NCBI GenBank assembly: GCA_023266115.1
Contig: JAHFRU010000005.1
Span: 1 to 64,000, forward strand
From: Gammaproteobacteria bacterium
Lineage (GTDB): Bacteria > Pseudomonadota > Gammaproteobacteria > VBWC01
Length of the DNA: 64,000 nt
Reading direction: 5' to 3'
Shown: positions 44,007 through 45,929 of the stretch, in pieces
How positions within the stretch are numbered: position 1 is the stretch's first letter
How the letters are laid out: the number at the start of each line of letters is the position of its first letter
Notes under the pieces: model-generated
Told to the model about the DNA's origin: nothing
The model's database searches: none
The model's input: only the letters and a program-made list of their open reading frames with translations
Program-made: the position numbers and the translations under genes

Positions 44007-44083
44007 GCGCCCGTAGCTCAGCTGGATAGAGTACCGCCCTCCGAAGGCGGTGGTCAGAGGTTCGAATCCTCTCGGGCGCGCCA
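44007..44083 (+). tRNA. tRNA-Arg (CCG)
   Basis: A 77-base cloverleaf: acceptor GCGCCCG pairs with CGGGCGC, the anticodon stem is CCGCC/GGCGG with loop CTCCGAA and anticodon CCG at 44041-44043, the T arm is AGAGG-TTCGAAT-CCTCT, and the 3' CCA is encoded. It reads the arginine codon CGG. Its last bases are repeated 119 bases downstream, a pattern left by integration at tRNA genes. Confidence 0.97.
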
Positions 44084-44285: not shown

Positions 44286-44320
44286 AACAAAAAACCCGCC
44301 TGGGTTTGCCAGGCGGGTTT
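44286..44320 (-). terminator. Intrinsic terminator of the Mms6/MamD-like gene
   Basis: A perfect 12-base stem, AAACCCGCCTGG (44292-44303) and CCAGGCGGGTTT (44309-44320), with a 5-base loop. On the minus strand it is followed by a T-rich run, 46 bases past the stop of the gene at 44366. On the plus strand it could also end the tRNA-Arg transcript. Confidence 0.85.
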
Positions 44321-44365: not shown

Positions 44366-45568
44366 TCAGTGTGCCGGCTGGAGTTCGTTGTCGGACTTGT
44401 GGGCCTCCTGGTCTTTCTTGTTGCGCACATAACCATAAATGCCGGCCGCGGCGAGCCCGCCAAGGATGACCGGGCCCCAAGCGCCCAAGCCCAGTCCCAG
44501 ACCCAGGCTCCAGCCGGTGCCTGACCAGATGGTGCCCGCTGCTACCGTTGTCTTCGCAGTGGCTGCCGCTGTTGTTGCGGTCGCGGCGCTTTTTCCGGCG
44601 ACGCACGCCTTGCCGGCAGATGTTGCCGCCGGGGTGGTCATCGCGGCATTCATCATCATCGGCTTGCCGGCCATGCCGCCCGCCGCCTTTGCTGTGGCAC
44701 CGGTTTTCATCGTTGCACCTGCCGCGGCCTTACCGCCAGCGGTCTTCGCCGCTGCCGCCGACGTGGCTGCTGCTGACTTGGCGGTCACCGTGACCGGCTT
44801 CAGAATGATCAGGTTCTTAGGACCGACGCCGGCCGCTATCGGCGCTTTGTTAACCGAGAACGTCTTGCCAATCAATGACGGGATCTGATTGGCGCCTTCC
44901 TGAACCTTCAGCATCATGACCTGATTGCCGCCCTGTCCTGCCGCAGCACCGGCGGGTTTCAGGAACAGCATATTGTTGGCATTGGCGCCGACCGGAGGCG
45001 CCATCACGGTGAACGCCTTGCCGCCGGCGGCCTTGGCCATTGCCGCCTGCTTGGCATTGGTGACCTCGATAAGAATCGAATTGGCACCCTGGATCTGTGT
45101 AATGGTGATGTCGGCTGCCGCTGCAGCACCGGCGGTCTTGACCGCCATCCCTGCCGCCCCTGCTTTCGCAGCCATGCCAGCCTTCGCAGCGGCGGCACCG
45201 CCCGCCTTGGCTGCGCCACCTTTCGCCGCTACACCAGCGGCGCCGGTTCCCGCGGCGCCGGCTGTTACAGCACCGGCAACCGGTTTGACCACTACCCATT
45301 TGCTCGCGCCGCCGCCGAGCATCAACGGCGAGTTGCCGATGGTGACGGTTTTACCGCCCATTGCGGCGACTGTTGCGGCCTGATTATTACCGGCCAGTTG
45401 CACAGCAATGGACTGGCCACCTGCTGTCGTTGGATTCAGGATCAGCATGTTCTTCATGCCGCCGCCTGCGACGGCCTTGCCGACGGTAAATGTCTTCCCC
45501 TGCGCGGCCGCGACCTGCGCGGCTTGCCTCGCGGTTTCGATCTTCAGCATGACTGTTTCAGTAACCAT
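44366..45568 (-). CDS. Mms6/MamD-like repeat protein with LG-rich transmembrane domain
   Basis: A 400-residue, Ala/Gly/Lys-rich protein. Four related units of about 43-45 residues (5-47, 53-97, 164-206, 217-259) share the pattern GKTFTVGKAP, a glycine-rich turn and a hydrophobic strand ending in KP or NP. Low-complexity Ala/Lys/Gly/Thr linkers lie at about 98-152 and 262-345. The C-terminus is GTIWSGTGW, then SLGLGLGLGAWGPVILG, a membrane helix to about 380, and a short polar tail. That tail domain closely matches the magnetosome proteins Mms6 and MamD (Mms7), where the LG-rich helix sits in the magnetosome membrane and the end binds iron or magnetite. Here the tail has only scattered acidic residues. 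The ribosome-binding site is GAGAGGAA and a terminator follows. No other mam or mms gene lies in the window. Confidence 0.82.
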   Translation of the reverse strand: MVTETVMLKIETARQAAQVAAAQGKTFTVGKAVAGGGMKNMLILNPTTAGGQSIAVQLAGNNQAATVAAMGGKTVTIGNSPLMLGGGASKWVVVKPVAGAVTAGAAGTGAAGVAAKGGAAKAGGAAAAKAGMAAKAGAAGMAVKTAGAAAAADITITQIQGANSILIEVTNAKQAAMAKAAGGKAFTVMAPPVGANANNMLFLKPAGAAAGQGGNQVMMLKVQEGANQIPSLIGKTFSVNKAPIAAGVGPKNLIILKPVTVTAKSAAATSAAAAKTAGGKAAAGATMKTGATAKAAGGMAGKPMMMNAAMTTPAATSAGKACVAGKSAATATTAAATAKTTVAAGTIWSGTGWSLGLGLGLGAWGPVILGGLAAAGIYGYVRNKKDQEAHKSDNELQPAH

Positions 45569-45929
45569 ATTGAATTCCTCTCGGTGTTATTATTAATTCC
45601 GGTTAACTCGCCACGCTTCTTTCGACATTTCGCGAACAGCAAGAAAATATGGCAATCCGATTACTCATGGAACCCGTCGAACAGGAATGCTCCCTACCGA
45701 AGAAACACTGTTCAGATCCGAATTCTCAGTCTTGTTAAGTTATTTCTTACCATATTCATCGGGCGTTGTCATATCTTAAATAAAGCACTATTTTCTTGAG
45801 GAATAATGCGGAATCGTTATTGTTGGTAAACAACCGGACGGAATGTGAGTTTGCTTACGCGATCAAATAAAAAAAGCGCGTATCCTATGGGTTGTTTTAT
45901 TCGTTTGCGAATTAAAATGCCTATCGTTT
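45569..45929. other. AT-rich upstream region of the Mms6/MamD-like gene
   Basis: This 360-base stretch is clearly more AT-rich than the surroundings and holds no credible gene. It must contain the promoter of the gene at 45568. Several TA-rich hexamers are present, but I could not single out a -35/-10 pair with good spacing. The base composition suggests regulatory or acquired DNA. Confidence 0.45.

Follow-up and report, generated by a model that had tools for sequence, protein, structure and literature searches.

Paired repeat units in a probable MamD (Mms7) protein encoded outside the magnetosome gene cluster of a gammaproteobacterium

A mamD gene and its surroundings

The 64,000-nucleotide stretch of gammaproteobacterial DNA analysed here (the window) contains an open reading frame on the minus strand (44366..45568) whose 400-residue product, judged by its sequence, is almost certainly MamD (Mms7), a protein of the magnetosome membrane that belongs to a known family. 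The NCBIfam model for MamD (NF040916) matches it over three stretches with 206.9 bits against a cut-off of 100. The models for Mms6 (NF040917; 55.2 bits, cut-off 200) and MamG (NF040985; 36.3 bits, cut-off 100) stay below their cut-offs, and their matches fall on the C-terminal part with its LG-rich segment. At E-values up to 1, the MamD model also finds matches in four of 14 control genomes, none of them above the cut-off. A Pfam search with the whole protein identified no family, the best hit being SecD_1st at E 0.18. At the nucleotide level, the gene shows purifying selection, with 46 synonymous and 8 nonsynonymous differences from the sister species (pN/pS 0.062 by simple counting). A probable ribosome binding site, GAGAGGA (45576..45582, minus strand), is read upstream of the ATG, and a terminator-like hairpin, a consensus match only and readable on both strands, lies 3' of the gene (44292..44320, minus strand).

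The host genome is a draft of 3.10 Mb in 46 contigs, and the mamD contig (C14) measures 153.9 kb. The neighbours of mamD are a tRNA-Arg gene (ccg; 44007..44083, plus strand), which lies outside the system, and genes for an Exo_endo_phos protein, a PfkB kinase, cytochromes and an acetolactate synthase-like protein. No magnetosome cluster gene adjoins mamD, and MamC is not on this contig; with 15 cluster proteins as queries, the contig yielded a single match, a 25% MamO-like one that is presumably just a common protease of the HtrA type. Around mamD, the sister species is arranged in the same way, with 94% identity across 11 kb. The GC content of the mamD stretch is 62–64%, compared with 57–58% in the surrounding 4-kb blocks, and the neighbouring PfkB gene also has 61–63%. 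A direct repeat of the tRNA-Arg end across mamD, sought as a sign of integration at this tRNA, was not found. Relative to the window, the sister species carries a duplication of about 150 bp next to tRNA-Arg (L026:10966-11117) that reaches into the 3' end of the tRNA; one tRNA was called there.

Four units in two pairs

The protein carries four copies of a unit of about 43 residues, all encoded on the minus strand: unit 1 at residues 5–47 (45428..45556), unit 2 at 53–97 (45278..45412), unit 3 at 164–206 (44951..45079) and unit 4 at 217–259 (44792..44920). A first-pass annotation had proposed this four-fold repeat with the same limits, and both are borne out: a profile seeded iteratively from the protein's own units finds all four, at residues 6–46, 54–97, 165–206 and 218–259. 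A left-out profile, made from 130 units of which none came from the window's species or the sister species, although the search that gathered them had started from the window's units, with which they were also aligned, likewise recovers four of four, with 46.4, 44.2, 39.1 and 26.4 bits (iE 1.4e-13 to 2.5e-7) and with unit 3 at 167–206.

None of 1000 segment-shuffled, composition-keeping copies of the protein yielded a unit at iE <1e-3 (best 6.3 bits). Five of the six unit-versus-unit scores were reached by none of 2000 composition-keeping shuffles, and that of units 3 and 4 by two of 2000; the first half scored 135 against the second, the shuffled maximum being 75. Self-alignment no better than that of shuffled sequence had been named as the result that would count against the repeat; its scores exceed those of the shuffles, and the repeat stands. 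The motif GKxFTVxxAP given earlier for the units is loose, with unit 1 lacking the proline and unit 2 reading GKTVTIGNSP. Across 23 aligned units, the G of GK never varies and the closing L.P hardly does. Across the 189 residues of the two pairs, there are 17 Lys and Arg and 3 Asp and Glu, giving a net positive charge.

The arrangement as two pairs split by an alanine-rich linker also held up. The Ala/Gly-rich linker between the pairs (residues 98–163; 45080..45277, minus strand) contains 46% Ala at residues 98–160, has pLDDT values below 50 at 100–161 and includes a four-codon indel relative to the sister species. Units 2 and 3 are separated by 67 residues in the window's protein and 71 in that of the sister species, compared with 13–29 in 22 other four-unit proteins. 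An Ala/Thr/Lys-rich linker precedes the membrane segment (residues 260–344; 44537..44791, minus strand); it has 40% Ala at 262–345, and AlphaFold draws a helix at 263–274 inside a stretch with pLDDT below 50 (262–361). Alanine makes up 17% of the units as opposed to 40–46% of the linkers.

The LG-rich C-terminal segment expected of MamD is present as the motif LGLGLGLGAWGP (residues 355–366; 44471..44506, minus strand), in the part of the tail where the models for Mms6 and MamG also match. A predicted membrane helix lies at residues 365–390 (44399..44476, minus strand), which AlphaFold draws with low confidence (pLDDT only about 55). The available excerpts of an earlier study assign MamD a C-terminal transmembrane helix (PMC3905215). 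The tail of the window's protein is less acidic than those of most relatives.

Predicted fold of the units

AlphaFold models, all of single chains, were obtained for the full protein with 39 of 47 four-unit proteins (mean pLDDT 58.7; units mostly 70–90, linkers below 50) and, from 98 of 111 available pairs, for the first pair by itself (pLDDT 74, pTM 0.62), which shows the same elements. In the full model, each unit is a strand-helix-strand-strand: strands at residues 6–10, 26–29 and 41–46 with a helix at 13–21 in unit 1; 54–58, 74–77 and 91–96 with 61–68 in unit 2; 165–169, 185–189 and 200–205 with 172–180 in unit 3; and 218–222, 236–240 and 252–258 with 226–232 in unit 4. We regard the unit fold as moderately predicted, and no known structure resembles it convincingly.

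Foldseek comparisons of the full model and the first pair with the PDB, and of the first pair with viral models, gave no match at E up to 0.001. With VIA-align, the best Z for the first pair was 4.5, and none of 999 chains reached 5; a sequence search of the PDB gave nothing with E <0.24. Pfam searches with 98 pairs gave hits to 21 families (E up to 1) that were all unconvincing, the best E of 0.0019 coming from a single member. HIRAN-like and clamp-like rows recur in these comparisons at insignificant scores. The unit pair aligns with the HIRAN domain of HLTF at TMq 0.45–0.48 and an insignificant E of 0.97–2.3, and with Rad5 (6l8n) and 3k2y, which we take to contain HIRAN domains, at Z 3.3 and 3.8, respectively; profile comparison of unit pairs with seven of eight HIRAN matches was empty. 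For a DNA sliding clamp, the best Foldseek values were E 0.055, probability 0.12 and rmsd 16.7 with the full model; the unit pair compared with a viral clamp model gave 0.12, 0.20 and 12.7, respectively. The tudor-like domain of FlgD (PF13861) shows weak, non-significant similarity to 10 of 98 MamD pairs (best E 0.0057). FlgD does not occur among the 50 structure-search rows listed for the full model and the pair, an absence that excludes nothing. As far as the excerpts of PMC3905215 go, FlgD was the basis of an earlier model of part of MamD, and MamD was listed there without a conserved domain. The unit has no Pfam entry (best E 0.18 with the whole protein, 0.0019 in single members of the 98 pairs), in line with the earlier suggestion that it could be a new domain; the family of the protein is known.

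The repeat across the MamD family

Among 4867 open reading frames from 58 stretches, most of which were picked because mamD is present, 45 proteins contain the unit, 24 of them with four units and 21 with two. A scan of named loci found it in the window and in 63 of 72 loci (47 four-unit and 17 two-unit proteins), nine loci having none. The two protein sets overlap, and every member of either (45 of 45 and 64 of 64) has two or four units, the window's MamD having four. Many of these relatives are situated among magnetosome genes.

In a search of 398 genomes of the phylum, the unit profile was positive in 42, and these are the same 42 that have MamD above the cut-off (lists compared by eye); five further genomes have only MamD-model matches below it. 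The number of unit matches per genome was 2, 4, 8, 12 or 16, with one genome having 7. In the window's own genome, the only significant matches are the four in mamD; the Mms6-like gene and a gene for a 97-residue LG protein were not matched by the unit profile, and two other places were insignificant (E 0.55 and 0.89). Single-unit proteins, proposed earlier as something to search for, turned up neither in the scans of open reading frames and loci, nor in the own genome, nor among the matches listed for the 398 genomes. To judge from these sequence searches, the unit is apparently confined to MamD. The protein is rare in the class, with MamD in 5 of 369 genomes; three genomes of the class have the two-unit form, and another bin titled Gammaproteobacteria has four units (L136, L137). 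Outside Pseudomonadota, a bin titled Nitrospinota has a two-unit MamD (L106:2016-2588) with mamT- and mamS-like genes next to it.

In a tree of 69 pairs, the second pairs form one group (99/85) and the first pairs of four-unit proteins another, weaker one (89/74); the two pairs of the window's MamD fall with their respective groups, and the pairs of the two-unit MamDs of Magnetococcales and two Thiotrichales bins fall on the first-pair side. Because the second pairs group together and the window's pairs join the others, the duplication of the pair seems to be a single, ancient event that did not take place in the window's lineage. With its few columns and without an outside root, the tree does not separate acquisition of the second pair from its disappearance among the two-unit lineages. 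The duplication of a pair suggested by the first-pass annotation is supported both by the counts of two or four and by the separate first-pair and second-pair groups.

In a tree of the 47 four-unit proteins, the window's MamD groups weakly (87/84) with proteins of Magnetococcales. The idea that the out-of-cluster mamD genes are one paralogue found no support, the label requiring nine changes on that tree; the label means that no cluster gene lies within the fetched flank, was set by hand for 18 rows and is rough because many contigs are short. Near-identical four-unit MamDs of 335–338 residues occur in six genomes of magnetospirilla and relatives (L092, L093, L096, L097, L100 and L148), with no cluster gene in the fetched flanks, and five of the six genomes also have a divergent MamD beside a MamF-like open reading frame. 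This suggests a recently mobile second mamD, perhaps of the type of amb0400, which the accessible part of PMC2818848 describes as a mamD homologue in an AMB-1 islet outside the main island. Unlike the window's mamD, whose contig gave only the MamO-like match to the 15 cluster queries, amb0400 lies with other mam-like genes and transposases.

Magnetosome genes elsewhere in the genome

A mamAB-type cluster is located on contig C35, not on the contig of mamD. In it, MamI (84.2 bits, cut-off 80), MamM (437, 350), MamN (559.6, 500), MamB (456.6, 350), MamT (206.1, 200), MamH (659, 300), MamK (481.7, 400), MamA (229.5, 200) and a second MamI (85.0, 80) score above their cut-offs. MamE (599 of 800 bits), MamP, MamQ, MamR, MamS, the scanned part of MamO and another MamA are best matches below the cut-off, and MamL reaches only 16.2 of 100 bits. 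The two MamA and two MamI proteins are encoded in or beside the cluster (L011:8278-8988, L012:2008-2658, L011:9647-9901 and L012:10662-10871). A third CDF transporter beside mamT (L012:6104-7252) has MamM as its nearest Mam model, under the cut-off (218.4 of 350 bits).

An Mms6-like protein (73.5 of 200 bits) and an open reading frame that we take to be MamF-like follow; the latter has no library match and shares 40–60% identity with open reading frames of other loci, one of which lies just upstream of mamD in Magnetospirillum SS-4 (L110). MamC (132.4 bits, cut-off 100) is encoded on a third contig, C13 (L169:1356-1718), whose first 20 kb contain no cluster gene, and a weak MamC-like frame (51.8 of 100 bits) on a fourth, C11 (L170:9886-10191); two MamC matches are likewise present in the sister genome. 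In this genome, mamD does not lie next to mamF and mamC as in the mamGFDC operon, MamC being on C13 and C11 and the MamF-like frame on C35. Provided that the draft assembly is correct, mamD and the cluster are separated by at least about 55 kb: mamD lies 44 kb from the nearer end of its contig, and a further 11.5 kb or so lies between the cluster and the end of C35. The 97-residue LG paralogue, with the degenerate segment GMGVGLASWTP, is encoded outside the cluster (C34, L005:1474-1767) and also occurs in the sister species. A genome of the same genus (G001) has the same three LG proteins.

The window's protein resembles MamD/Mms7 of the Magnetospirillum mamGFDC operon type (for example L110, L144 and L149) in its family model, four units and LG-rich tail but differs in the location of its gene outside the magnetosome cluster. 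Two-unit MamDs of Magnetococcales and two Thiotrichales bins share the unit and tail with it but have one pair and are encoded inside the cluster, mostly upstream of mamF-, mamH-, mamI- and mamE-like genes; a mamD-like gene upstream of mamHIE is mentioned in the excerpts of PMC6783814.

Proposed role and alternatives

The published work on Magnetospirillum, cited here from the portions available, places Mms7/MamD at the magnetosome and reports effects on crystal or membrane size (PMC11332177, PMC4945951, PMC11628618). Under biomineralising conditions MamD arrives at the magnetosomes, MamN holding it back and MamO being required, and in the authors' model its cleavage by MamE releases membrane growth (PMC11332177). 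MamF-like proteins are required for its targeting, MamD being depleted 84-fold in their absence (PMC11628618). The expression level of mms7 alters crystal shape, and a 7-kDa C-terminal piece is found on the crystal (PMC4945951). Which end of MamD faces the lumen is disputed, the N terminus (PMC3905215) or the C terminus (PMC4945951).

We consider it likely that the window encodes the MamD of a gammaproteobacterium with magnetosome genes and that this protein acts as in Magnetospirillum. By analogy, MamD would enter the magnetosome membrane through its glycine-rich helix once biomineralisation begins, aided by MamF-like proteins. There it would restrain membrane growth and influence the size and shape of the magnetite crystal until cleaved by the protease MamE. 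Because MamE of this genome falls below its cut-off (599 of 800 bits), cleavage of the window's MamD is not assured. We rate this mechanism in its particulars as slightly better than an even prospect here. The unit pairs would most likely form the folded part that faces the lumen and the crystal, and the low-complexity linkers could be spacers and plausible protease-sensitive sites. It is possible, although we would wager against it, that the pair is a magnetosome-specific, MamD-only domain of unsolved fold whose copy number, set by one ancient duplication, tunes crystal size or shape in each lineage.

Within the organelle, the pairs might bind mineral, a lysine-rich luminal domain templating or capping magnetite faces with the number of units setting reach or avidity. 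The net positive charge fits this idea, but the pairs contain neither His nor Cys and only a few acidic residues, leaving no obvious iron ligands, and in the excerpts of PMC3905215 it is Mms6, rather than the MamD repeats, that is reported to bind iron; we consider the idea rather unlikely. A slightly less probable proposal makes the pairs protein-interaction modules through which MamD, or its partners, would be cross-linked into a membrane coat, a scaffold inside the organelle. In its favour are the long linkers, of low predicted order, between the repeats and the persistence of both two-unit and four-unit forms; against it, the AlphaFold models are of single chains only.

A surface-displayed array unrelated to magnetosomes, as the first-pass annotation envisaged, would account for modular repeats, Ala-rich linkers and a hydrophobic C-terminal segment. 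It is very improbable given the score far above the MamD cut-off, the coincidence of the 42 of 398 unit-bearing genomes with the 42 that have MamD, and the many relatives among magnetosome genes; since the protein is MamD by NF040916, surface display finds no support and the family is not new. Chance similarity of low-complexity Ala/Gly sequence would suit the linkers, which are truly of that kind, but not the units, with their lower alanine share and their absence from all 1000 segment shuffles, and its probability is negligible. The preferred reading remains that of a MamD acting as in Magnetospirillum.

Implications for the MamD family

This is a true repeat in a known organelle protein, and its pair-wise anatomy is a modest addition. 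We met no account of a MamD repeat in the parts of the open-licence literature available to us and do not claim that none has been published; as far as that literature extends, what is new to us is that the repeat follows a pair-wise grammar, goes back to an old duplication and is apparently restricted to MamD, and that the gene lies off the cluster in this gammaproteobacterial genus. The crystal-shaping genes are scattered, with mamD on C14 and mamC on C13, so counts based on the cluster alone can miss parts of the toolkit. According to the excerpts of PMC11332177, MamD is a target of the MamE-controlled checkpoint of magnetosome growth. The grammar of the repeat, with pairs, two or four units and probably one old duplication, supplies constructs for structural and truncation work, and the one-pair and two-pair lineages provide a natural contrast.
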